From: Paenarthrobacter sp. GOM3
Lineage (GTDB): Bacteria; Actinomycetota; Actinomycetes; Actinomycetales; Micrococcaceae
Reading direction: 5' to 3'
Assembly: GCF_018215265.2 (NCBI RefSeq)
Contig: NZ_CP136562.1
Coordinates: forward strand, 186,001 to 250,000
DNA: 64,000 nucleotides
A program made the translations under genes and the position numbers. Within the stretch, counting starts at the first letter, position 1, and each line of letters starts with the position of its first letter. Below the pieces are notes generated by a model. It had not been told where the DNA came from. It worked only from the letters and a program-made list of their open reading frames with translations, and searched no databases. Of this stretch, positions 5,101 through 31,313 are shown in pieces.

Positions 5101-5469
5101 ATGATCCCCGGTGAATACAGGCTCCAACCAGGCTCCATTGCGTGCAACAGCGGCCGCGAGGCAATCGCCGTCGAAGTCGTAAACCGCGGAGACAGGCCCG
5201 TCCAGATTGGTTCGCACTACCACTTTGCCGAGGCGAACCGCGCCCTGGAATTCGACCGCAAAGCCGCCTACGGCCGCCGCCTGGACATTCCTGCCGGCAC
5301 GGCCGCGCGCTTCGAACCGGGAGACAGGAAGACTGTCCAACTGATCGAAATCGCCGGGTCCCGCGAAGTCTTCGGGCTCAGTAACGCAGTCAACGGAAAG
5401 CTCGATGGCGGAACCGGGGTTGACGGGGCAGCCCGCCCGGGCGTCGCAGCGGAAAGGGACCACCAGTGA
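5101..5469 (+). CDS. ureB: Urease subunit beta
   Basis: 122 residues. It begins MIPGEYRL and contains the conserved [39 protein letters not shown] and RFEPGD segments of UreB. The C-terminal about 15 residues ([15 protein letters not shown]) form a variable tail. An AGGAG site lies 6 bp upstream of the ATG. The stop overlaps the GTG start of ureC (GTGA), so translation is probably coupled. It is part of the urease holoenzyme with UreA and UreC. Confidence 0.98.
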
Positions 5470-7196
5470 GCTTCGAAATATCCCGCCGGCAATACGCCGA
5501 ACTGTACGGCCCGACGACGGGCGACGCCATGCGCTTGGCCGACACGGAACTGTTCCTGGAAATCGAGAAGGACTACACAGTCCACGGCGAAGAGGTGGTG
5601 TTCGGCGGTGGCAAAGTAATCCGCGACGGCATGGGTCAAAACGGTCAGCTGACGCGCGCTGAAGACATCCCGGACACCGTCATCACCAACGTCGTCGTCC
5701 TCGACTACACCGGGATCTACAAGGCGGATATTGCCCTGAAGGACGGCCATATCTTCAAGATCGGCAAGGCCGGCAACCCGCAGATCACCGACGGCGTGGA
5801 CATCGTGATCGGCGCGAGCACCGAAATCATCGCCGGTGAACGGAAAATCCTCACCGCCGGCGGCATCGACACCCACATCCACTTCATCTCCCCGGAGCAA
5901 GTACCCACTGCGCTGTGCAACGGCATCACCACCATGGTTGGCGGCGGCACAGGACCTGCCGAAGGGACCAAAGCCACCACCATCACGCCCGGTGCCTGGC
6001 ACATCTCACGGATGCTCCAGGCCGTGGAAGGGCTTCCGGTCAACATCGGCCTGTTCGGCAAGGGCCACGCGTCCGCCGTCGAGCCCCTCGCAGAGCAGAT
6101 CCGTGCCGGTGCGGTCGGCCTCAAAGTCCATGAGGACTGGGGCTCAACAACGTCCTCGATCGACATGTCCCTGCGCGTAGCCGACGAATACGACGTCCAG
6201 GTAGCCATTCACACCGACACCCTCAACGAGTGCGGTTTCGTGGAAGACACCATCCGGGCAATCGACGGCCGCGTCATCCACACGTTCCACACCGAAGGGG
6301 CCGGGGGAGGGCACGCGCCGGACATCATCAAGATCGCCGGACTGCCCAACGTTCTCCCCGCATCCACCAACCCCACGCTGCCGTACACCAAAAACACCAT
6401 CGAAGAGCACCTGGACATGCTCATGGTCTGCCACCACCTCAACCCGGACATCCCCGAAGATGTGGCCTTCGCAGACTCCCGCATCCGCGCCGAAACGATC
6501 GCCGCCGAGGATGTCCTCCACGACCTCGGAATCTTCGCCATCACGTCCTCCGACTCCCAAGCCATGGGCCGGGTGGGCGAAGTGGTCACCCGCACCTGGC
6601 AGGTAGCCGACGCCATGAAACGCCAGCGAGGCGTGCTCAAAGACCCCAGCGGAACCACGCACGGATCTGCCGAGTCGGACAATTTCCGGCTCAAGCGCTA
6701 CGTCGCCAAATACACCATCAACCCCGCAATCGCCCAAGGCATGGCCGACGTGATCGGCTCCGTGGAAGAGGGCAAATTTGCCGACCTGGTGCTCTGGGAT
6801 CCGGCGTTCTTCGGAGTGAAACCGGAACTCGTCATCAAGGGAGGCCAGATCGCCTACGCCCTCATGGGCGACTCCAACGGTTCCATCCCCACCCCCCAGC
6901 CCCGCACCATGCGGCCCATGTTCGCCACCTACGGGAAAGCCCTCCAACAAACATCCATCACGTTCCTGTCCAAGGCAGCCATCGACGCCGGAGTGCCCGC
7001 AGAACTTGGGCTCGAACGGATCATCAAACCCGTCACCGGCATCCGCAACCTCACCAAAGCGGACCTCAAATACAACGGCGAAACCCCGGACATCGCCGTC
7101 GACCCCGAAACGTACAAAGTGACGGTCGACGGCGAAGAAGTCACCTCCCAGCCGTCCGACGTGCTGCCCATGGCACAGCGCTACTTCCTCTTCTAG
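5466..7196 (+). CDS. ureC: Urease subunit alpha (catalytic)
   Basis: 576 residues, full length. Nickel ligands and active-site residues are all present: HIH at 137-139, the lysine to be carbamylated K220 in [10 protein letters not shown], His at about 249 and 275, the catalytic flap histidine in MVCHHLNP (about 323), and the aspartate ligand in [14 protein letters not shown] (D363). Nothing suggests inactivation. The start is GTG at 5466, overlapping the ureB stop. It hydrolyses urea in the cytoplasm; assembly needs UreEFGD encoded directly downstream. Confidence 0.99.
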
Positions 7197-21932: not shown

Positions 21933-21996
21933 CCAACTAAGGGACAGCAAAAGTCGCTATGAGCACTCATAGCGACGTTTGCTGTCCCTCAGTTGG
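21933..21996. terminator. Long bidirectional hairpin
   Basis: Nested stems: CCAACT/AGTTGG outside, then AGGGACAGCAAA with a TTTGCTGTCCCT-like partner, then GTCGCTATGAG/CTCATAGCGAC at the tip. It lies between the universal stress protein stop (21928) and the end of the leftward ThDP/Sty operon (22009). It is a likely terminator for both directions. Confidence 0.85.
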
Positions 21997-22008: not shown

Positions 22009-23685
22009 TTAGTGGCCTTGGAACGCCTCCGCCAGCCACCACGAGCCGCCGTCTGAGGCGATCTTGGCGTCGATGACCAGTGGCCGGTCCTGCGTCCCGG
22101 CTTCGTAGGCTGCGATCCACGGGCGCACGGCGTCCAGGTCCGCTACGGTCCTGACGGTGACTCCGTGAGCCCCGAAGCCGCGGGCAATCGCGGCGATATC
22201 GGTGTCCGGGAACACCACGCTGGACAGCTCCTCCGGGGAATGCTGCGACGCGAAGTGGTGTACTTCGGCCCCATAGGCGGCGTCGTTGTAGACGATGCAA
22301 ACCAAAGGCAGTTTCAGCCGTGCAGCTGTCTCCAGCTCGCTGATCCCCATGAGGAATCCGCCATCGCCGGCGCCCAGGACAGGCAGCCGGTTCGGTTGGG
22401 CAACAGCCGCGCCGATCGCCGTGTACAACCCCAGCCCAATGGCCTGGAACGCTTGCGTGAAGCAGAAGCCGAACTCGTCCGGCACGGCAAGGTACTGGCT
22501 GGGATAGCCCATGAAGTTCCCCGAATCCACCGCGACGATCCTTTCCGTCGGAAGCATGGTGTCGAGTTCGCGGGTCAGCACGCGCGGATCAATGGACGTC
22601 GCCGTGGACAGGTCCGGCGTTTCGACGTCCCGCCAACGAGACCCCTGCTTGATGGCCAGGGCGTTGGCTTCGGTACGGTACTTCCCGGCCGGTTCGGTTT
22701 GAACGTCCTGGAGGGCTGACAAGACATCCGAGGCGGTCAGCGCGGCATCGCCCAACACTCCCAGCGAGATGGGCCGGTTGGCGCCCAGGGCAGCGTCTTC
22801 GACGTCGATCTGCACCACTTTCGCGCCGGCAGAAATCAGCCGTCCGTGCCGCATGGTCCACATGTTCAGTGCGCAACCCCAGCCCACGATCAGGTCGGCG
22901 CCGCTGATCAACTCTGCCGTCAGCGGCGAAGAGAACCCACCCGAAATCCCCAGGTTGTGCGAGTCGCCGTTGAACAGGCCATTGGCTACGGCGGAGGTGG
23001 CCACCAACGCGCCGGCGTGCCGGGCCAACTCCAGGATTTCCTCCCGGGCAGCCCGGCCACCGCGACCCGCGACAAAGACCGGGCGTTCCGCCGCGGCGAT
23101 CAGCGCCCCCAGTTGTTCAACTGCGGCAGCGTCCGGCCGCACCTTCAGCGGTTGAGGCGCGACGACGGCACCCACCTCGTCTGCGGCGGCTCCACTTTGG
23201 ACGTCCAACGGCAAGCTCAGGACCACTGTGCGGCGCTCATTCACTGCCGTGCGGAAAGCCCGGACGGTGTCAGCAACGGCCGTCGCGGGGGAGTGGATCC
23301 GTTCCGCCACGGCCCCAACGCTGCGGGCCAGGGCATCCTGGTCGATCTTGAAGTTCGATCTGATGGCTGCGGCCTGGGTATCGGCCGTGAGTACGATCAT
23401 GGGCGTGCGGCTCTTGGCTGCCTCGCCAACTCCCGTGATGGCGTTCGTGAGGCCGCAGCCCTGGTGCGTAGTAACCACGCCAACCTTGCCCGACATTCGC
23501 GTGTAGGCGTCCGCCATGGTTGCCGCACCGCCCTCGTGCCGGGCCGCGGTGAACGGGACACCGGACTCCATCAGCGTGCTGGTGACGTCGAAATTGCCGC
23601 TGCCCACCACCCCAAAAACATGCCCGACGCCGAGCTTCGCCAACGTCCGCCCAACGAGCGTGGAAACCCTCACCTGCTCACTCAT
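22009..23685 (-). CDS. Thiamine-diphosphate enzyme, benzoylformate decarboxylase/acetolactate synthase-like; putative isatinate decarboxylase
   Basis: 558 residues from ATG at 23683-23685, overlapping the upstream cyclase stop (ATGA). The PYR domain has the catalytic glutamate E51 in AARHEGGAATMADAYTR and THQGCGLTNAITG. The PP domain has the ThDP motif GDGGF (440-444) ending YND (466-468). Known relatives decarboxylate 2-keto acids such as benzoylformate. Next to an isatin-hydrolase-like gene, the obvious substrate is isatinate (2-aminobenzoylformate), giving anthranilate or 2-aminobenzaldehyde. That assignment is inference. It is the last gene of the six-gene operon starting at 29913. Other ThDP lyases of the same fold (for example sulfopyruvate-type) remain possible. 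Confidence 0.9.
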   Translation of the reverse strand: MSEQVRVSTLVGRTLAKLGVGHVFGVVGSGNFDVTSTLMESGVPFTAARHEGGAATMADAYTRMSGKVGVVTTHQGCGLTNAITGVGEAAKSRTPMIVLTADTQAAAIRSNFKIDQDALARSVGAVAERIHSPATAVADTVRAFRTAVNERRTVVLSLPLDVQSGAAADEVGAVVAPQPLKVRPDAAAVEQLGALIAAAERPVFVAGRGGRAAREEILELARHAGALVATSAVANGLFNGDSHNLGISGGFSSPLTAELISGADLIVGWGCALNMWTMRHGRLISAGAKVVQIDVEDAALGANRPISLGVLGDAALTASDVLSALQDVQTEPAGKYRTEANALAIKQGSRWRDVETPDLSTATSIDPRVLTRELDTMLPTERIVAVDSGNFMGYPSQYLAVPDEFGFCFTQAFQAIGLGLYTAIGAAVAQPNRLPVLGAGDGGFLMGISELETAARLKLPLVCIVYNDAAYGAEVHHFASQHSPEELSSVVFPDTDIAAIARGFGAHGVTVRTVADLDAVRPWIAAYEAGTQDRPLVIDAKIASDGGSWWLAEAFQGH

Positions 23686-24458
23686 GCGCGCTCCACCAAC
23701 GCGTACACGCGGCTCGGGCTGCCTGTGCCGCCGACAATCGGCAGGGGGGCGACAACCAGTGTGGCGCCCGTGACCGGCAGGCGGTCCACGTTGCGAAGGG
23801 ACGTTACCCCGTACTTGTCCGCGCCGAGGAGGAACGAGTGGACCGGGAACATCGGATCCAGTGCGCCCGCCTGGCCTGCGTCGATGCCCACAGTTTCCAC
23901 CCCGAAACCACTGAGTGAGGCGTTTCCGGCCAGCCACTTGGCACCTGCCGCAGAGACGCCGGGAGTGTGGGGTCCGGCGTCGTCCGCGTTGACGAAAGCC
24001 GTAGCGTCGGCGCCCCGGGCGGACCACCCGGTGCGGAAGACGATCCAGCAGTTCTCCGGAAACGCACCATGCTCGGATTGCCACTGCTCAAAGTGTTCGG
24101 GCTCCAGCAGGAAATCAGGGTTGGCTGCGACCTCGGCTGTCTTGTCGATCACCGCGATGGGCCCAACCAGGCGGTGGGGTGCGATCTGGTCCACGGATTT
24201 GCCGTCCTTGCCTGTGATCCAGTGGACGGGAGCGTCCAGGTGCGTCCCGGCATGCTCCCCGACGGTGACGTCGTTCCACGCCCAGGCCGGTCCGGCGTCG
24301 TCGAAATTACTCACTGGCGAGACGGACAGCCCAACCGTATTCGCGAACGGCTGCGGCAGGTTCAGGATGGGGGTTTCGGAGCTGAGCGGGGTGGTGAGGT
24401 CGATGATTTCCACCGAGCCATTCGAAAGGGCTGCTGTGAGCCCGGCCAGAACAGACAT
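23682..24458 (-). CDS. Cyclase-family metal hydrolase, putative isatin hydrolase
   Basis: 258 residues. The family motif HxGTHxDxPxH appears as GEHAGTHLDAPVHWITGKD: H69, H73, D75 and H79 would bind the divalent metal. The family includes kynurenine formamidase and isatin hydrolase. The length (about 258 versus about 210 for KynB), the Trp after the last motif histidine and the GKD that follows fit isatin hydrolase better, as I recall it. It would open isatin to isatinate. It overlaps the ThDP enzyme gene and follows the FAD oxidoreductase by 24 bp, so it belongs to the StyA1/StyA2B operon. Confidence 0.85.
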   Translation of the reverse strand: MSVLAGLTAALSNGSVEIIDLTTPLSSETPILNLPQPFANTVGLSVSPVSNFDDAGPAWAWNDVTVGEHAGTHLDAPVHWITGKDGKSVDQIAPHRLVGPIAVIDKTAEVAANPDFLLEPEHFEQWQSEHGAFPENCWIVFRTGWSARGADATAFVNADDAGPHTPGVSAAGAKWLAGNASLSGFGVETVGIDAGQAGALDPMFPVHSFLLGADKYGVTSLRNVDRLPVTGATLVVAPLPIVGGTGSPSRVYALVERA

Positions 24459-24482
24459 TGTTCTCCTATCGCTTGCGTGGTT

Positions 24483-26069
24483 TCAGTGCTTTTTGATCAA
24501 TTTTTGTGACACCAAGTGCCCCGAGCCGCCCGAGAGCCCCGGGCCCGGATGGGTGGACGCTCCGATGTGCCAGAGTCCCTTGACGGCAGTTTGGTGTCCC
24601 GCGGCTGCGGGGAAGGGCCGCCACAAAAGGTTCTGGAACAGCTCAGCCGAGCCGCCATAGGGGTCGCCTTTGACTGCGTTGGGGTTGGCTGCGGACAAGT
24701 CAGTGGGTGCAAGGATGTCGGACGCCAGGACCGCGTCGCGGGTCCCGGGCGCGAACTGTTCCAAACGCGCCAGCACCCGGTCGAGATACGCCTGCTTGAG
24801 CTCGTCCGTCCAGCCTTCGCTGACATCGAGCTTTCCCGCAGCGTCACCCACCGGAGCAAAGGGCACTTCCTGCAACTGCAGCCACAGCGTCGCCTTGCCT
24901 TCCGGTGCCCGCGACGGATCCAACACGTATTGCTGGCCCACCACCACCGTTGGCTCAGTGGGCAGGAGGCCGGCTTCAGCTTGGGCGCAGGCGATTCCTG
25001 TGCTGTCCGAACCGTTGCTGATATGCACCAGTGGAACCCGGTTGAGCCGGGAATCGAGCCACTCCACAGGTTTGTCGAGGGCGAGGTGGATCTGCATGGC
25101 TCCGCGGCCGTTCTGGTATTTTTCAGCTGCCGAGGCAGCGGCGGCAGGCGGCCGGCGGAGGAGTTGGGTGTAGAGGGCCTGCGGCGAAACGTTCGCCAGG
25201 ACGGTCCCGGCGGGGACCACGCCATTCGAGGTCCGAACTCCCTTCACCGATCCCGCGCCGACCAGGATCTCTTCTGCCTCAGTACACAGCATGATCCGCA
25301 CTCCGTTGTCCTGCAGGAGCGACTCAAAAGCGGCAACAAACCGCGAAGCGCCGCCCTTGACCACCGGAAGGCCGAATCCGTGCATGCTCATGGCCATCAC
25401 CGGCAACATGATCCCGCCTGTCGCCTGGTCCGGGCCGAGCCCTGCGTGCAGGAGCCAGGGTGACCACAGCTGGTCGGCTTCCCAACCATCAAAACGGCTG
25501 CGGACGAAGTTCCGGCCGCTCATCACCGAGTCCCTCATGAAGGCTTCCGTACCGGCCAGGCGGCCCCGCCGCAACGCCCCGAACGCGATCTTCGCGACCT
25601 CCTTGAAGGAACGGAGTTCAGCGGCAAAGGCCCCGAAGACAGTACCGGCGTTGCTGCCCAGGTCATCCAGCATGGCCAAGTACGCAGCCTGGTCCGAGGA
25701 GACCTTGAACGCTGCGGCCGTTTCCGCCGGATTCCGCTGAGCAATGACCACGCGGTGGGCTCCGCTCGCCGGGTCAACAGCCACACTGGCCGTCACCCCG
25801 TCGGTGGTGTTGCAGTACTCCAAGCCCCTGTCATGCAGTTCCTTGCCCAAGCTTGCATATGCACCGCCGGAAACGAAGAGCGGATGCCAGGAAGAGAACG
25901 TGTCGTGAATGAAGCCCGGAAGGGTTCGCTCCGCGGAGTGGATGAAGCCGCCCAGCCGGTCCGAGCGTTCGATGATGCACACGCGCTTCCCGTCCAGGGC
26001 AAGCTCGGCCGCAGCGACCAGGGAGTTGATGCCCGAACCAATGATGGCGACGTCAACGGGATCGTTCAT
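24483..26069 (-). CDS. FAD-dependent oxidoreductase of the phytoene desaturase/PYROXD2-like group
   Basis: 528 residues. The N-terminal dinucleotide fold DVAIIGSGINSLVAAAELALDGKRVCIIERSDRLGG (residues 5-40) is followed by a C-terminal FAD motif near HIGASTHPGPGLSGGSGHLV, both characteristic of carotenoid-desaturase-like amine-oxidase superfamily members. Middle regions include LLHAGLGPDQATGGIMLPVMAM and LPVVKGGASRFVAAFESLLQ. It probably oxidises a C-C, C-O or C-N bond. In this operon it could convert an indoxyl or oxindole intermediate toward isatin, but nothing in the sequence proves it. There is no carotenoid gene nearby. It sits 25 bp after styA2B. Confidence 0.85.
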   Translation of the reverse strand: MNDPVDVAIIGSGINSLVAAAELALDGKRVCIIERSDRLGGFIHSAERTLPGFIHDTFSSWHPLFVSGGAYASLGKELHDRGLEYCNTTDGVTASVAVDPASGAHRVVIAQRNPAETAAAFKVSSDQAAYLAMLDDLGSNAGTVFGAFAAELRSFKEVAKIAFGALRRGRLAGTEAFMRDSVMSGRNFVRSRFDGWEADQLWSPWLLHAGLGPDQATGGIMLPVMAMSMHGFGLPVVKGGASRFVAAFESLLQDNGVRIMLCTEAEEILVGAGSVKGVRTSNGVVPAGTVLANVSPQALYTQLLRRPPAAAASAAEKYQNGRGAMQIHLALDKPVEWLDSRLNRVPLVHISNGSDSTGIACAQAEAGLLPTEPTVVVGQQYVLDPSRAPEGKATLWLQLQEVPFAPVGDAAGKLDVSEGWTDELKQAYLDRVLARLEQFAPGTRDAVLASDILAPTDLSAANPNAVKGDPYGGSAELFQNLLWRPFPAAAGHQTAVKGLWHIGASTHPGPGLSGGSGHLVSQKLIKKH

Positions 26070-26094
26070 ACGGAACCACTCCTTTCAGGAGGTG

Positions 26095-27822
26095 TCAGAA
26101 ATCCGGGTGGGTGGCAGTTGCGTGGTATTTGCCGGCATGGAACACCAGGGGAGCGCCGCCGTCGTGGTTGTAACCCTCAACTTCACCCACATAGATGACG
26201 TGGTCGCCGGCGTCATGCCGGGAGACCGTCCTGCATTGGAACGTGGCGACGGCGCCGTTGAGGAGCGGCACGCCGGCGATCCCCTCGGTGGTCTCCGTTC
26301 CCGCGAACTTGTCCGTTGCGGGCGTTGCGAACTGGCGGGACAGGACGTGCTGGTCGCTGGCAAGAATGTTGATGGCGAAGTGTGTGGCATCCTCAAAGTC
26401 ACCCAGGCTGGGCGCTCGCTTGCTGGGGCACCACAGCACCAGCGGGGGTTCCATGGAGACTGACGTGAAGGAGTTTGCGGTCATGCCTACCTTCCTGCCG
26501 TCGGCGGCAACAGTGGTCACAACGGTAACGCCGGTTGCGAACTGACCCAAGGCACCCCTGAAGTCCCGGAGGTCGAAGGCGGCTGTGTCGTCCTCCTTCC
26601 GGGCTTGCATGAAGTCCGCGGCGGCCGTGGGGTCGAACCACCAGGGGTACGAGGTTCGGGGGTCGTCGAAGCCGGCCACAATGCTAGCCGCCAGTGCCGG
26701 GTGCTCCGCGGCCTCGCTCAGCAGTATTTTCTGGTGATCCCTGCGGGGCTTGAGGAGATCGTTGGTCCATTCGACGGCCCACTGGCCCCAACCGCGCCAG
26801 AACTCGTCGAAGGTGCGCTCCATCCATGCGCGGTCAAAGGGCTGCTGGCCGCGGCGGACGATCGAATCAAGGTAGTACTTGGCGGCCAGCGTGGCGTTGT
26901 TGGAACCTTGCCCGGTGAGGGGATCGTTGAGGACCACGGCGTCGCCGAGGCCGAACACCAGTTTCCCGTTGCCGAGTTCCCCGACGGCGGACCGCACCGT
27001 GGGCGTGATGCGCCCCAGGAGCGTGGCGCCGCTGTCGGTCAGTTGTGCTTCGGCAAAGTTCTCGGCCTCATGTGGGAAGTGCTCCCGCAGGATCTCCAGT
27101 GAGCGTTCCAGTTGCTCTTCGGGGCTCCCGACGTCGGTCCAACAGTCCATGGGGCCGCCCACCACGCCCTCGAACACCATCATGCGGCACGGTCCGGAGA
27201 CGGTCAGGCCAGGGAACGTAAAGAACTCGCCGACGCCGGGTGCCATGGACATGCGGATGGCGTCACCGTGGGTGTCCGTGCTGTCGGAGGACGTGACGTA
27301 GTTCAGCGCCAGGACCCGCTGCGGGCGGTCGAAGGGCGACTTTGCCTTGTCCCGCGGGAAGATCTGACCGATTTCGCCCTTGCCCGTGCTCACAATGACC
27401 AGCTCGTAGTCGCGGGCGAGTTCTTCGAGCATGCGCGCGGTGACTTTCTCGATCCGGAAGTCCCCGCCGTTGGAAACGAACGTCTCGATCCATAGGGCAC
27501 TCTTGATCCGCTGGTCGATGGAACGGGCCGGGCCGTCCAGGGGTGCCTCCCACTCGATGGGCTGCTCGGCATCGACGCGCAACCGGATCGAGGTGATACC
27601 GGGCACGGCCCCTGATTCATAGAAAGCCGTAAGCGCTGCGCCCATCTGGGCTTCGGCGTCGAGGGCCGTGGCGAACATGCACTGGCTGGACATGACCTTG
27701 CCCGTCCGGATCTGTGCGGCCGAGCGGTCGGACAGCAGCGTCACTTCGTAGCCGTCCCGCTGCAGGCCCAAGGCCAGTTGGGCGCCGGATTCGCCGGCCC
27801 CAACGATTGCTATTTTTCGCAT
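26095..27822 (-). CDS. styA2B: StyA2B: styrene/indole monooxygenase fused to flavin reductase
   Basis: 575 residues. Residues 1 to about 410 are a StyA-type flavoprotein monooxygenase: FAD motif KIAIVGAGESGAQLALGLQ at 3-21, GKGEIGQIFPRD, and VVLNDPLTGQGSNNA. Residues 420-575 are a StyB-type flavin reductase (DFRGALGQFATGVTVVTTV, then GMTANSFTSVSMEPPLVLWC, PLVFHAGKYHAT). One polypeptide therefore both makes FADH2 and can oxygenate. Natural StyA2B fusions paired with a separate StyA1 are known from Rhodococcus opacus 1CP. They epoxidise styrene slowly and oxidise indole. Gene order StyA1 then StyA2B and the 27-bp gap match that system. Confidence 0.95.
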   Translation of the reverse strand: MRKIAIVGAGESGAQLALGLQRDGYEVTLLSDRSAAQIRTGKVMSSQCMFATALDAEAQMGAALTAFYESGAVPGITSIRLRVDAEQPIEWEAPLDGPARSIDQRIKSALWIETFVSNGGDFRIEKVTARMLEELARDYELVIVSTGKGEIGQIFPRDKAKSPFDRPQRVLALNYVTSSDSTDTHGDAIRMSMAPGVGEFFTFPGLTVSGPCRMMVFEGVVGGPMDCWTDVGSPEEQLERSLEILREHFPHEAENFAEAQLTDSGATLLGRITPTVRSAVGELGNGKLVFGLGDAVVLNDPLTGQGSNNATLAAKYYLDSIVRRGQQPFDRAWMERTFDEFWRGWGQWAVEWTNDLLKPRRDHQKILLSEAAEHPALAASIVAGFDDPRTSYPWWFDPTAAADFMQARKEDDTAAFDLRDFRGALGQFATGVTVVTTVAADGRKVGMTANSFTSVSMEPPLVLWCPSKRAPSLGDFEDATHFAINILASDQHVLSRQFATPATDKFAGTETTEGIAGVPLLNGAVATFQCRTVSRHDAGDHVIYVGEVEGYNHDGGAPLVFHAGKYHATATHPDF

Positions 27823-27849
27823 GGTTGAATCCTTGCTGGCAGGGGTGTG

Positions 27850-29088
27850 CTACAAAACTTTGGCGGAGGCGAGTCCGGCCAGGTAGCCGGCGGCCTTGTC
27901 GGGGTACATGAACCACTCCTGGAATTCCGGTGGATGGTTGAAGCCGTTCGCGAACCGATGGGCGATGGCAGGTTCCTGGTTGGCTGCGCCCAGAAGCTCC
28001 AGGACATGCGGCGGTGGCGGGGCCAGGAGCGCATTGGTCCAGTGTGCAACGTGCTGGGCGTAATCCCAATAGCGCTCGAACGTGGCCTGCATGAACCCGG
28101 CGTCGAAAGGACCGCTGTGCTGGACGATGCTGTCCGTGTACGACGCCGCGCACTTGCTCGCGTTGTTGGACCCTTGGCCCGTGATGGGATCGTTCAAAAC
28201 CACGACGTCGGCCAGGCCCAGTACCTGCCGACCGCTCGGGAGCGTGGCGATCGGGTGCCGGACCGTGGGTGCGAACCGGCCTTGGAGGATGCCGTTGGGA
28301 TCGGTGAGTTCCACGTCCGTGGCGCGTTCGGCTTCCCACGGGAGGAAAGTCTGCAGGATCTTCTTGGAGTTCTCCAGGTGCTCCTCGGGCGTCAGGCCCT
28401 TCCAGGTGTCCATCGGGCCGCCGGGCACGCCCTCGAAGACCATAATTTCGCAAGGGCCGGTGGTGGTCAGAGCAGGGAAAACGAAGAACTCCCCAACACC
28501 GGGGATGAGGTTGAAGGACACTGCCGAGTAGTCTTCCCGGGGTGTCAGGCCCTTCACGTAGGTCAAGGCCAACGCCCGCTGCGGTGCGTCATAGGTGCTG
28601 CGTTCGGCGTCGCGGGTGAAGAGCTGCGCGATCTCGCCCTTGCCGGCGGCCACGATCACCAGGTCCGAGTTCAGGGTGTACCTTTCCAGCTCTTCAACCC
28701 CCGCGTCTTCGAAGACCAGTTCGCCGCCGCGCGCGACGAACTCTTCCATGAAGCGCGGGAACTTCACCCGCTGGTCGATCGACTTGGCGTGATTGTCCAG
28801 GCGGGAGGCCCAACTGATGGCTTTCTCGCCCGGCACCTCGGGGTGGGGGATGGTGAAGGAGATCCCGTCCACGGTGGGTGCGTCCGGCCAGAAATCGAGC
28901 CCCAGCGCACGCTCATTTTCCAAGGCGTCGTGGAAGATGCACTGGCTGGAGGCGACTTTGCCGTCGCGGATTTCTTCGGGTGTCCGGTTGGAGATGGTTG
29001 TGACCTGGAAACCGGCGTCCAGCAGGCCGATGCCCAGCTGCAGTCCGGACTGGCCGGCACCGACGATGGTGATGTGGCGTTGAGTCAT
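27850..29088 (-). CDS. styA1: StyA1: FAD-dependent styrene/indole monooxygenase oxygenase component
   Basis: 412 residues, the standard StyA length. The FAD motif ITIVGAGQSGLQLGIGLLDAG is at residues 6-26. IVAAGKGEIAQLF and VVLNDPITGQGSNNASKCA mark the group E flavoprotein monooxygenases. It lacks its own reductase and is expected to take FADH2 from the reductase part of StyA2B. Family chemistry is epoxidation of styrene-like or indole double bonds; indole gives indole 2,3-oxide, then indoxyl (indigo precursor). Substrate preference cannot be read from sequence; the operon favours indole. Confidence 0.95.
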   Translation of the reverse strand: MTQRHITIVGAGQSGLQLGIGLLDAGFQVTTISNRTPEEIRDGKVASSQCIFHDALENERALGLDFWPDAPTVDGISFTIPHPEVPGEKAISWASRLDNHAKSIDQRVKFPRFMEEFVARGGELVFEDAGVEELERYTLNSDLVIVAAGKGEIAQLFTRDAERSTYDAPQRALALTYVKGLTPREDYSAVSFNLIPGVGEFFVFPALTTTGPCEIMVFEGVPGGPMDTWKGLTPEEHLENSKKILQTFLPWEAERATDVELTDPNGILQGRFAPTVRHPIATLPSGRQVLGLADVVVLNDPITGQGSNNASKCAASYTDSIVQHSGPFDAGFMQATFERYWDYAQHVAHWTNALLAPPPPHVLELLGAANQEPAIAHRFANGFNHPPEFQEWFMYPDKAAGYLAGLASAKVL

Positions 29089-29124
29089 GGTGTTGTCCTC
29101 TTCTGTTGGTTCCGATTGCGAATG

Positions 29125-29913
29125 TCAGTTGGCTGCGAGCAGCGGGATGGTCTCTTCGGCGCGTTCGGGGCCCAAGGCGGAATAGCCGCCGTCGACCGCC
29201 CAATCGGCTCCCGTCACGAAACTCGCCTGGTCGCTGGCTAGGAAGGCGACGACGTCACCCACCTCGCGCGGACGGCCTACCCGTCCCAGTGCGTGGAACG
29301 GGGCCGCGACGGAGTCCGTTTTTTCAAGGCTTCCGTTGCTCAGGGTGTCCATGATGTTGCTCCATACCCAGCCCGGGCTGACGGAGTTCACCCGGATGCC
29401 GTCTGCCGCGAAGTCCACGGCCATGCTGCGGGTGGTCTGGACCAGGGCTGCCTTGCTGGCCGGGTACAGCCACCGGCCGGTCTGGGCTACGGAGCTGGAA
29501 ATGGAGGTGAAGTTGACGATGGCTCCATGCCCGGAAGCTTTGAGGTAGGGACGGGCTGCGTTGGCCGCCACTACCGCGCTCACGAGGTTGACGTTGAGGG
29601 CTTCGAGCCAGTCGGCCCTGCCGGACGCTGCGCCGTCGTCCTTGTAGGTGCAGGCGAGGTTCACCAGGATGTCCAGGCCTCCGTGCTGGGCGGCCGTGCG
29701 GCTGAGCAGCGCTTCCACTGCGAAATCGTCCGTGATGTCTGTGTGGGAGTAGTGGATTCCCGCGCCCAGCCCGGCGGTGAGTGATTCGCCGTCGGGCGCT
29801 ATATCCGCGACCACCACGGTGGCACCGGCATCCCGTAACGCGGTCACCACTCCCTGGCCTACCTTGGTGGCGCCGCCGGTAACGATTGCCGTCCTGCCCT
29901 TCAGTGCTGACAT
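29125..29913 (-). CDS. Short-chain dehydrogenase/reductase, first gene of the StyA1/StyA2B operon
   Basis: 262 residues. The cofactor motif is TGGATKVGQGVVTALRDAG (residues 12-30), a non-canonical T-G-G-A-T-K-V-G version of TGxxxGxG. It also has LVNLACTYKDD in place of NNAG, catalytic Ser in NFTSISSSV, Tyr-x3-Lys in RWLYPASKAALVQ, and the C-terminal ASDQASFVTGADWAVDGGYSAL. It would oxidise a hydroxy intermediate made by the monooxygenases; in the Acinetobacter iif indole pathway an SDR plays a comparable part. A ribosome binding site AAGGAAAGG precedes the ATG. Located at the promoter-proximal end of the operon. Confidence 0.9.
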   Translation of the reverse strand: MSALKGRTAIVTGGATKVGQGVVTALRDAGATVVVADIAPDGESLTAGLGAGIHYSHTDITDDFAVEALLSRTAAQHGGLDILVNLACTYKDDGAASGRADWLEALNVNLVSAVVAANAARPYLKASGHGAIVNFTSISSSVAQTGRWLYPASKAALVQTTRSMAVDFAADGIRVNSVSPGWVWSNIMDTLSNGSLEKTDSVAAPFHALGRVGRPREVGDVVAFLASDQASFVTGADWAVDGGYSALGPERAEETIPLLAAN

Positions 29914-29948
29914 GGCCAGACCTTTCCTTGGTGGATTGTTGCGGAATT

Positions 29949-29962
29949 ATGACGTGCGTCAT
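29949..29962. promoter_or_regulatory. Palindromic operator candidate upstream of the SDR/StyA operon
   Basis: ATGACG-TG-CGTCAT is a perfect 6-bp inverted repeat with a 2-nt centre, 36-49 bp upstream of the SDR start codon. CATAAT on the minus strand (29945-29950) overlaps it and could be the -10 box. A bound protein here would sit on the promoter. No protein is assigned to it. Confidence 0.4.
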
Positions 29963-30043
29963 ATTCGTTCTGGATGCGACTCTAGCTACCGTGCGGCGGC
30001 GTGAATATCCGTTGAGCGCAGGCATCATCCGGATTACGCAGGC
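29955..30043. repeat. Regulatory block A of a duplicated 89-bp element
   Basis: Aligned without gaps to 30226-30314, 55 of 89 bases match (my hand count). The conserved islands are GTCATA, GCGACTCTAG (29976-29985), GAATATCC and ATCATCCG. This copy is next to the SDR/StyA operon promoter. It may hold the AraC-type activator site. The intervening 30044-30225 holds no credible gene. Confidence 0.6.
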
Positions 30044-30225
30044 TCTTCCTCTTCTTCGTGCCAGCCCACCCACGCCGCCGATGTGAGCCGCGCTTCCCTT
30101 GCCAGGAGCTCCGCGGCCCACAAGTCAAAGTGGTTGAGGTCCCGCTCTTCGCGACGATCGTGTACGAGCTTGATGTTCTTCACTTTCCCCACCTGCGTTT
30201 CGAGCGTTGTTTCGGTGCTGTGAGC

Positions 30226-30314
30226 TGGGTCATACTTGTCTTAAAAGCGACTCTAGACAGCCGCTGCACTCCGGAATATCCACATGGCGCGGGGATCATC
30301 CGAAAGGCGAAAGC
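30226..30314. repeat. Regulatory block B of a duplicated 89-bp element
   Basis: The second copy in the same orientation, offset 271 bp from block A, with GCGACTCTAG at 30247-30256 and ATCATCCG near the right end. It ends 30 bp before the AraC gene start, so it could serve autoregulation or form a DNA loop with block A. Short reading frames over both blocks translate to similar peptides, but this follows from the DNA duplication and does not imply a gene. Confidence 0.6.
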
Positions 30315-30344
30315 TGCGAAAAAACCCTGTGAAGTAGGTGGCAG

Positions 30345-31313
30345 ATGGTGAGGATTCTTCCCCGGGACGTTCTACGGGGACGGCCGACAACGGCCACGAA
30401 GGACGTGGATGAAGCCCACGCGAAGATTGCCGAACTGTTCTGCAGCCATGAGCTGGCGCCGCGGACCAGGACATCCGCCGTGGACATGAAGTTGCGGTCC
30501 CTCCATCGGGCCGATGTTGGCATCGAGTTCCTGGATTACGGCGCCGATGTCCGCATCGACCCCGAGGGCCTGCAGGATTTCCACCTTGTGCAGATTCCGT
30601 TGGCGGGCCATGCGACCATGCAGGTGGGGTCCGCCATCGTGGAATCCAGTCCCACGATGGCCAGCGTCCCACCGATCGACAAGCCGTTTTCCATGAGCTG
30701 GGACGGCGGCAGTCCGCACTTGATCGTCTATGTGCGCCGGCTGGCCCTGGAGCGCGTCGCCGCGCAGTTATACGGCGAAGGTGCCGTGGACCTGGGCTAC
30801 GGCATGGACCTAAGTGGTGGGGCAGGGCGCGCCTTCCTGAGGGCCGTCGTCGAACTCCACGACGACATGATCAGCCGGCCACAGTCCGTTGCACCGCAGT
30901 TCGTGCAGGGGCTCCTGGCGGACAGCATGGTGTCGCGTCTGCTGATGGCCATGGAACGCCCCGGGGACGACGCCCGCGATCCCGAAGCCGAGAGCAGGCT
31001 GGTGCGTGAGTGCCGCGAGCTACTGGAGCGCCACGCCTTCGAAGAGCTCACCGTGCCGGACATCGCAGAGTGCCTGGGTGTGTCCGTCCGGACCCTGCAG
31101 ACCGCGCTCAGGGCGGAGACCGGCGCCACGCCGTCGGAGCTGCTGCGGAGCATCCGGCTGGACCGGGCCCGGGAAATGCTGCTCGAGGCCGACCCTCGGG
31201 AGCAGAGCGTCACGGCGGTGGCGGAGCTCTGCGGATTCACGCATCAAGGCCGCTTCTCCGCGCTGTACTTGAAGACTTTCGGCGAACTGCCCTCGGAGAG
31301 CCTGCGCCGGTGA
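30345..31313 (+). CDS. AraC-family transcriptional regulator (XylS/FeaR-like ligand domain)
   Basis: 322 residues. The N-terminal about 190 residues (IEFLDYGADVRIDPEGLQDFHLVQIPLAGHATMQVG, then PTMASVPPIDKPFSMSWDG and HLIVYVRRLALERVAAQL) form the 'AraC-binding-like' domain found in activators of aromatic catabolism. The C-terminal double HTH (about 220-320) has EELTVPDIAECLGVSVRTLQTALRAETG and VTAVAELCGFTHQGRFSALYLKTFGELPSESLRR. Placed divergently from the StyA1/StyA2B operon, it is the likely activator responding to the aromatic substrate or an intermediate. An AGGTGG site precedes the ATG. Confidence 0.93.
   Translation: MVRILPRDVLRGRPTTATKDVDEAHAKIAELFCSHELAPRTRTSAVDMKLRSLHRADVGIEFLDYGADVRIDPEGLQDFHLVQIPLAGHATMQVGSAIVESSPTMASVPPIDKPFSMSWDGGSPHLIVYVRRLALERVAAQLYGEGAVDLGYGMDLSGGAGRAFLRAVVELHDDMISRPQSVAPQFVQGLLADSMVSRLLMAMERPGDDARDPEAESRLVRECRELLERHAFEELTVPDIAECLGVSVRTLQTALRAETGATPSELLRSIRLDRAREMLLEADPREQSVTAVAELCGFTHQGRFSALYLKTFGELPSESLRR

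Follow-up and report, generated by a model that had tools for sequence, protein, structure and literature searches.

A candidate operon for indole degradation through isatin to anthranilate in Paenarthrobacter sp. GOM3

A 64,000-nucleotide stretch of the Paenarthrobacter sp. GOM3 genome, referred to below as the window and used for all coordinates, carries six leftward genes built around a StyA1/StyA2B-type monooxygenase pair, and raises the question of which compound such an operon serves. A preliminary description of the locus had proposed a complete route from indole or isatin to anthranilate. The proposal touches a wider problem: a 2018 review treats the role of isatin in indole degradation as open because no gene of the iif indole-degradation cluster accounts for its formation or use, and a table in the same review includes Arthrobacter strain B1 as a producer of both isatin and anthranilate when given indole (PMC6221969). 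Our analysis indicates that the operon, which is faced by an AraC-family regulator, probably serves indole catabolism through isatin to anthranilate.

The six genes lie on the minus strand, separated by gaps of 36, 27, 25 and 24 bp and then by a 4-bp ATGA overlap, as originally described, and Pfam matches the family names first given to them. Beginning nearest the regulator, they encode an IifB-like short-chain dehydrogenase/reductase (SDR; 29125..29913, adh_short_C2); a StyA1-type protein, A1, predicted to be the indole monooxygenase IndA1 (27850..29088, Smoa_sbd); a StyA2B-type monooxygenase-flavin reductase fusion, A2B, predicted to be IndA2B (26095..27822, Smoa_sbd and Flavin_Reduct); a CrtI/CrtO-like FAD enzyme (24483..26069, Amino_oxidase/NAD_binding_8); a cyclase-family protein, assigned below to a third clade of isatin hydrolases (23682..24458, Cyclase); and a thiamine diphosphate (ThDP) enzyme (22009..23685, three TPP_enzyme domains). 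The start of the last gene is taken to be the ATG at 23685; the mechanical list of open reading frames (ORFs) starts this frame further upstream, at 24084. The regulator gene (30345..31313, AraC_binding_2 and HTH_18) is on the plus strand and so faces the operon, again as first described.

The distribution of these genes supports the earlier view that they form a dedicated operon. The surrounding genome is 4.46 Mb in size and has Paenarthrobacter and Arthrobacter as its nearest named relatives. Relatives of A1 (at least 90% identical), the cyclase (at least 94%), the FAD enzyme (at least 86%) and the ThDP enzyme (at least 89%) occur in the same five of 37 genomes of the genus, and the gene order is kept in all four genus relatives that were fetched, with proteins 85–98% identical; this co-occurrence in the same order argues that the arrangement is more than chance. 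A scan of GTDB species genomes for the cyclase gave 578 confirmed loci, the best 80 of which were analysed. These lean to close kin, nearly all being actinobacterial, with two Chloroflexi metagenome-assembled genomes, and many lie on short contigs. Each figure tallies loci and makes no claim of independent events; a gene was scored as present when its tblastn match passed a threshold of our own choosing, and neighbouring genes were called by a simple script based on GC content that mis-split some of them. A1 and A2B are found together at 11 of the 80 loci, all of them in Arthrobacter or Paenarthrobacter, and all 11 carry the full six genes in order.

Previous studies have changed the reading of such monooxygenase pairs. 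The preliminary description noted that StyA1/StyA2B pairs are usually discussed as styrene epoxidases. The E2-type enzymes were, however, renamed indole monooxygenases in 2018, StyA1/StyA2B becoming IndA1/IndA2B (PMC6165268), and the Rhodococcus opacus 1CP pair, assigned to indole by a study cited in PMC13101518, was not induced by styrene in that strain (PMC13101518); the styrene description is therefore out of date. E2-type clusters often include an SDR and a dienelactone hydrolase, together with genes that probably act on anthranilate, indolepyruvate and other compounds (PMC6165268).

Structural matches place the pair in the window with the indole (group E) and not the styrene monooxygenases, an indole-oxidising activity being predicted. 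The best match of A1 in the PDB is 7z4x (598 bits), followed at a distance by 9j0h (213) and the styrene monooxygenase 3ihm (150), and the monooxygenase domain of A2B scores 398–400 bits with its best matches (400 with 7z97), compared with 134 for 3ihm. We take 7z4x, whose deposited name is that of a putative dehydrogenase/oxygenase subunit, and 7z97 to be the Acinetobacter indole monooxygenase. Identity with the IifC-type protein from a Burkholderia iif cluster is 60%. A published fingerprint for indole monooxygenases, S46-Q48-M50-V/I73-I76-A96 (PMC13101512), is found at six of six positions in A2B and five of six in A1, these positions having been placed by eye on the PDB alignments using StyA numbering. 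The original suggestion of indole as the substrate is supported by these comparisons.

The SDR, 36 bp from the monooxygenase genes, gives an indication of the next step. It shows 57% identity over 261 residues with the SDR of an iif-like cluster from Burkholderia pyrrocinia, which is annotated as AraC, dienelactone hydrolase, SDR, monooxygenase and flavin reductase and which we have taken as iif with IifA and IifB, and it is 53% and 55% identical to the SDRs beside the monooxygenases of Alloyangia and Azospirillum. An IifB-type SDR is present at 15 of the 80 loci; locus L015 has a second SDR, 35% identical to the Burkholderia protein. In the iif pathway IifC/D convert indole to indole-2,3-dihydrodiol, and IifB and IifA act by way of 3-hydroxyindolin-2-one to give anthranilate (PMC12538310). 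Given this course from the dihydrodiol, and an IifB-like first gene, the passage through indoxyl that was first suggested is unlikely.

IifA itself has no close counterpart here. The best match in the genome containing the window is 36% identical over 193 residues, eight other genomes queried gave matches of at most 37% or none, and none of the 80 loci has an IifA above our score threshold. On a Variovorax plasmid the order is AraC, IifB, A1, A2B, IifA, showing that an IndA1/IndA2B pair can also join the classical iif route.

In the window the cyclase is one of three enzymes that stand in the stead of IifA. Its matches to isatin hydrolases of known structure (RsIHA, LaIHB and two LaIHA entries) score 242–265 bits, compared with 113 for a "cyclase family protein" (8f9x) and 23.5 for kynurenine formamidase (KynB). 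Isatin hydrolases are marked by an HxG[T/A]HxDxPxH metal motif, by H79, D193 and H207, by a WxW pocket and by a GLQC or GLAS signature (PMC6117287). In 20 aligned sequences including that of the window H69, H73, D75, H79, W59, W61, W80, D193 and H207 are invariant at LaIHA numbers, the first four being those noted in the preliminary description, and all 20 read G[LIV]T[SQ] in the signature region with T219 invariant. The equivalent sequence is GLTS in Deinococcus and on a Rhodococcus plasmid, GLQC in Azospirillum and GLAS in Alloyangia. In a midpoint-rooted tree of 22 rows, one of them long, 18 rows that include three characterised types split from four genus paralogues of unassigned function with support of 100/100, and the window protein falls, separately from the rows of the characterised enzymes, within a clade of 11 rows (96/97). 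From kinship and catalytic residues we conclude that it is a predicted isatin hydrolase of a third clade (GVTS/GLTS), as its first assignment implied. Kynurenine formamidase, considered as an alternative, is ruled out both by the scores and by the tree. A cyclase grouping with non-isatin hydrolases, named in the preliminary description as a ground for refutation, was looked for in this way, and the outcome favours that description.

The gene that most regularly accompanies the isatin hydrolase is that of the ThDP enzyme, found near it at 67 of the 80 loci, always on the same strand (67 of 67) and within −10 to 60 bp in 58 of the 67, distances being measured between alignment ends and not between called starts and stops. 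At nine other loci an alpha/beta pair resembling indolepyruvate ferredoxin oxidoreductase (IOR) is found near the isatin hydrolase; both types occur together at none of the 80, and neither occurs at four. In one of these four a ThDP fragment is cut short by the contig end (L071) and another ends 58 bp past the isatin hydrolase (L045), leaving L083 and L084 as real misses. Isatinate is an aryl 2-oxo acid and an expected substrate of a ThDP decarboxylase and of an IOR-like enzyme alike, and the presence of one or the other at 76 of 80 loci, but never of both, suggests that a single expected step can be served by either of two enzyme types. The IOR-like loci are L035, L039, L040, L042, L049, L067, L074, L089 and L092, with L110 also listed; three of them (L035, L039 and L089) have an FMO-like monooxygenase and no IndA1/IndA2B, which we read as a parallel version of the pathway. 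All four loci with the SDR and the FAD enzyme and no A1, these three and L083, carry the FMO-like gene. A luciferase-like monooxygenase gene is present at ten of the 80 loci (L039:7054-8654 and nine others); at L039 and several more of these loci it adjoins a gene for a flavin reductase.

In the ThDP enzyme, residues S29, E51 and H74 are invariant in 64 rows (63 and the query, aligned from 66 loci that passed the score, rows shorter than about 500 residues or containing a stop having been dropped), and are spaced similarly to Ser26, Glu47 and His70 of benzoylformate decarboxylase, the alignment being of these rows only. Among proteins of known structure even its best scores are low, with 160 bits for BbmA, 140 for benzaldehyde lyase and 92 for benzoylformate decarboxylase. 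Weaker relatives are present in three further genomes of the genus (76% identical in G018 and G019, 53% in G025). Loci L097 and L098 have a ThDP enzyme 73–76% identical to that of the window, and an MFS-type transporter gene is also found there (family run for L098). The product of the window enzyme may be 2-aminobenzaldehyde or anthranilate.

Between the presumed product of the SDR, 3-hydroxyindolin-2-one (dioxindole), and the substrate of the isatin hydrolase, only the FAD enzyme is left, and by this elimination it is likely to be a dehydrogenase or oxidase that forms isatin. Its relatives share the locus with the isatin hydrolase in 19 of the 80 cases (one a partial match at a locus edge), with either type of decarboxylase, and proteins 41% and 40% identical are found in Azospirillum and Alloyangia. 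The association with the IOR-like pair, which would be expected to make a CoA ester directly and to leave no aldehyde, favours a place for the FAD enzyme upstream of isatin; a role in oxidising an aldehyde to an acid, also considered, is disfavoured on the same grounds.

What lies beyond anthranilate is indicated by neighbouring genes. A protein at L039 passes the salicylyl-CoA 5-hydroxylase model (1216 bits, cut-off 1078), and its relatives occur at 14 of the 80 loci, the model having been run on the L039 protein only; 2-aminobenzoyl-CoA monooxygenase/reductase belongs to the same family. In several loci this gene is accompanied by those for a benzoate-CoA-ligase-like protein, RidA, a thioesterase, an FAH hydrolase and a PaaX regulator, each identified from a single example. 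The neighbour cluster that contains it (c5) had been considered as molybdenum hydroxylases, which Pfam and NCBIfam rule out, showing instead a protein of the salicylyl-CoA/2-aminobenzoyl-CoA monooxygenase type and a CoA ligase. This anthraniloyl-CoA-type gene set follows the full operon immediately at L023 (Arthrobacter sp. ISL-28) and L026 (A. silvisoli), whereas in the genome of the window it is found at 4.28–4.30 Mb. Within the genus, the monooxygenase/reductase-type gene is present in all five genomes with the operon and in five of the 32 others (p = 6e-4, uncorrected for kinship). In a close relative, Arthrobacter sp. Rue61a, anthranilate is apparently used through CoA thioesters only, and a chromosomal ligase was active when expressed (PMC3534580). 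The lower-pathway genes that go with the operon and the CoA route of this strain make anthranilate or anthraniloyl-CoA the likely end point, consistent with the end point originally proposed.

Each catalytic step of the resulting pathway is predicted for this organism from gene content and kinship. IndA1/IndA2B would add oxygen across C2–C3 of indole, with hydration of the epoxide giving indole-2,3-dihydrodiol; the SDR would oxidise the dihydrodiol to 3-hydroxyindolin-2-one, and the CrtO-like FAD enzyme would convert this to isatin. The isatin hydrolase would then open the ring to give isatinate, and the ThDP enzyme would decarboxylate isatinate, either to 2-aminobenzaldehyde, to be oxidised elsewhere, or to anthranilate directly. 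Anthranilate would proceed through anthraniloyl-CoA to the 2-aminobenzoyl-CoA monooxygenase/reductase encoded elsewhere on the chromosome.

The strongest argument for a route through isatin is that pieces of this pathway recur in varied orders and hosts. In a plasmid collection, seven of 21 records with the monooxygenase and six of 57 with the cyclase were examined, those of Alloyangia and Azospirillum being in both sets. In Azospirillum thermophilum an AraC gene faces an SDR, a monooxygenase, a flavin reductase, a transporter, an FAD enzyme and an isatin hydrolase, followed by an ISAs1 transposase, and no ThDP gene is present there. An Alloyangia pacifica plasmid has AraC, SDR, monooxygenase and reductase, then a 2-aminobenzoyl-CoA-type set, followed by isatin hydrolase, FAD enzyme, MarR, IOR alpha, IOR beta and FAD enzyme. 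A Deinococcus psychrotolerans plasmid carries, in order, a monooxygenase/reductase, SDR, MarR, enoyl-CoA hydratase, acyl-CoA dehydrogenase, AMP-binding ligase, isatin hydrolase, ThDP enzyme and RidA, so that the isatin hydrolase–ThDP pair is enclosed in a cluster of anthraniloyl-CoA type; another part of this plasmid carries a gene resembling indole monooxygenase. The isatin hydrolases of Roseibium and Sulfitobacter lie within dioxygenase–thiolase clusters resembling the iad auxin-degradation cluster, with no ThDP gene annotated in the stretch. The Streptomyces and Nonomuraea records have AraC with a monooxygenase pair, or a monooxygenase and a reductase, and no adjoining IifB-type SDR, IifA or isatin genes.

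On this distribution we put forward, at roughly even chances, a broader picture. It comprises the two candidate functions in the operon (CrtO-like dioxindole dehydrogenase and ThDP isatinate decarboxylase); the isatin hydrolase–ThDP pair, with its third-clade hydrolase, as a widespread, mainly actinobacterial module for isatin assimilation; the joining of isatin hydrolase with genes for indole oxidation in two or more lineages, the Arthrobacter type and Alphaproteobacteria, not necessarily independently; and an IOR-like pair that alternates with the ThDP enzyme and would give 2-aminobenzoyl-CoA directly.

Several observations weigh against the isatin pathway as proposed, or against parts of it. 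A1 has isoleucine at fingerprint position M50. The window cyclase reads GVTS and so lacks the published GLQC/GLAS signature, which is why its assignment is drawn from kinship and catalytic residues. Structural relatives of the FAD enzyme are weak, at 50 bits. The ThDP enzyme scores 150 bits on the NCBIfam benzoylformate decarboxylase equivalog, below the cut-off of 493, and is outscored by three further ThDP genes from the same genome (176–207 bits), none of them above the cut-off; "benzoylformate-decarboxylase-like", as it was first called, is a loose name, and membership of the benzoylformate decarboxylases is rejected. The ThDP relatives in L097 and L098 lie beside anthraniloyl-CoA-type genes without an isatin hydrolase. 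Pfam finds no aldehyde dehydrogenase among the six operon genes, and since non-oxidative decarboxylation by the ThDP enzyme would give 2-aminobenzaldehyde, the completeness claimed for the operon is uncertain even though its end point is supported. On a plasmid of Rhodococcus erythropolis R138 an isatin-hydrolase-like gene has RidA and EthD-type genes as neighbours, and the annotation nearby shows neither a ThDP nor an IOR gene. The seven monooxygenase neighbourhoods from the plasmid collection comprise two with isatin genes, two with IifA and three with neither. In a phylum sample of 396 genomes, close A1 relatives occur in 13, one of which is the genome of the window. The 13 stretches examined from the 12 others contain neither IifA nor isatin genes, although three of these stretches (two from one genome, one from another) have an IifB-type SDR. 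These misses indicate that the monooxygenase is not tied to the isatin pathway.

Such observations leave room for other functions of the operon. An unlikely one, in our view, is that indole is taken to 3-hydroxyindolin-2-one and onwards by another enzyme, with the isatin hydrolase and ThDP enzyme recovering isatin that forms spontaneously. Isatin has been called a dead-end product or artefact in iif strains (PMC6221969), and 51 of the 80 loci have the isatin hydrolase and ThDP enzyme and nothing else of the operon among the genes sought, which suits a clean-up role. That the isatin hydrolase–ThDP half is mostly found without a monooxygenase of the IndA1/IndA2B kind is itself a point against the proposed pathway. 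Against a clean-up role, IifA-like matches are weak in the five genus genomes that have the operon, and the FAD gene is inside the operon and adjoins the isatin hydrolase in Azospirillum and Alloyangia as well. Somewhat less probable still is a different natural substrate (skatole, indole-3-acetate or a halogenated indole), or a purpose in indigoid detoxification and not growth. Group E enzymes do also accept skatole or sulfides (PMC13101512, PMC6017014), and relatives of the isatin hydrolase are also found within the iad-like clusters, but skatole enzymes are said to lack the fingerprint that is largely present in A1 and A2B (PMC13101512), and the operon has no iad-type ring-hydroxylating dioxygenase, thiolase or CoA ligase.

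The older annotation as a styrene epoxidation operon we regard as very improbable. It draws on matches of A1 and A2B to the NCBIfam StyA model (244 and 215 bits) and on strain Rue61a, which co-metabolises styrene and whose StyA1/StyA2B genes its authors linked to that activity (PMC3534580). Both matches, however, fall far below the cut-off of 550, A1 scores four times higher with 7z4x than with 3ihm, no further styrene gene is present among the six, to which that search was confined, and the R. opacus 1CP genes are not styrene-induced (PMC13101518); on the cut-off, the structural scores and this lack of induction we reject it. Indole degradation through isatin remains the probable function of the operon.

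Control of the operon by the AraC protein is likewise predicted, the regulator being present in all 11 full operons of the survey. It scores 127 bits on the AndR model, below the cut-off of 350. The 431-bp region between the SDR and AraC genes contains two direct copies of GGAT-N16-GGAT, each followed by a TAGAGTC...TATGAC element. The first operator-like pair of half-sites, 20 bp apart (30277..30302, minus strand; core-like element at 30229-30255), precedes a small ORF, and the second (30006..30031, minus strand; core-like element at 29958-29984) lies just before the SDR gene. In 12 such regions (the window and 11 loci), at least one operator-like copy is present in 12, a second in ten and the core-like element in 11. 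A sigma-70 consensus scan found no promoter-like site (0.9 expected), and we therefore treat the core-like element as a pattern only. The small ORF between the two copies (30034..30183, minus strand; 49 residues) looks to be under purifying selection (seven intact copies, pN/pS 0.165) and has no Pfam match at E≤1. Two loci have a shortened version, L015 has a deletion and L022 a frameshift, and in L079 the ORF was not found.

Downstream of the ThDP gene is a terminator-like hairpin (21953..21976, minus strand; 10-bp stem and T-rich tail, seen on both strands), weak as evidence since the scan gave ten such sites with 6.6 expected. Elsewhere in the window, 5621-5910 on the minus strand matches the Rfam family 5_ureB_sRNA (104 bits), antisense to a plus-strand frame at 5466-7196 that is presumably ureB; the match may merely mirror conserved coding sequence.

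Full-text searches, within the sources they covered, gave no description of this operon and no named isatinate decarboxylase gene; an earlier depiction is possible, for example in a 2012 survey of StyA2B clusters cited in PMC6165268. Three of the components, namely isatin hydrolase, indole monooxygenase and IifB, were described before. What appears to be new is the replacement of IifA by an FAD enzyme, an isatin hydrolase and a ThDP enzyme, the exchange between ThDP and IOR-like enzymes, and the roles proposed for the FAD and ThDP enzymes. By physically joining an indole monooxygenase and SDR to an isatin hydrolase and two further enzymes, with no close IifA, these operons bear on whether isatin is a step or a side product. 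They offer candidate enzymes for the formation of isatin and the decarboxylation of isatinate, and suggest a purpose for Arthrobacter-type StyA1/StyA2B genes formerly read as styrene genes.

Comparison with known systems shows how the operon combines familiar parts. The IndA1/IndA2B pairs of Rhodococcus opacus 1CP and Variovorax paradoxus share the monooxygenase arrangement of the window, although the pair on the Variovorax plasmid is followed by IifA and that in the window by isatin genes. The cyclase shares family, Mn ligands, Asp-His-His residues and WxW pocket with LaIHA, LaIHB and RsIHA, and is 46% identical to a Roseibium aggregatum protein that groups with LaIHA in the tree; it differs from all three in belonging to a separate clade and in having Thr219 in place of Gln or Ala219 (GVTS/GLTS compared with GLQC/GLAS). 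In the iad auxin pathway of Variovorax and Bradyrhizobium, dioxindole, isatin, isatinate and anthranilate are reported intermediates, as proposed here (PMC9613470), although a 2025 preprint revises that route (PMC12633357). The iad cluster has IadI, a hydrolase of the cyclase/kynurenine formamidase type, where the window has its cyclase-family hydrolase, but starts from indole-3-acetate with a Rieske oxygenase and other upstream genes unlike those of the operon. There is also a parallel in layout with iif of Acinetobacter and Burkholderia (IifA-IifB-IifC-IifD), which likewise has a facing AraC gene, an IifB-type SDR and a flavin reductase that accompanies a group E indole monooxygenase, and whose product, anthranilate, is also that proposed for the window operon. 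In the window, however, the reductase is fused to a monooxygenase in A2B, and IifA, a cofactor-free oxygenase of the dienelactone hydrolase family, is replaced by the FAD enzyme, the isatin hydrolase and the ThDP enzyme.

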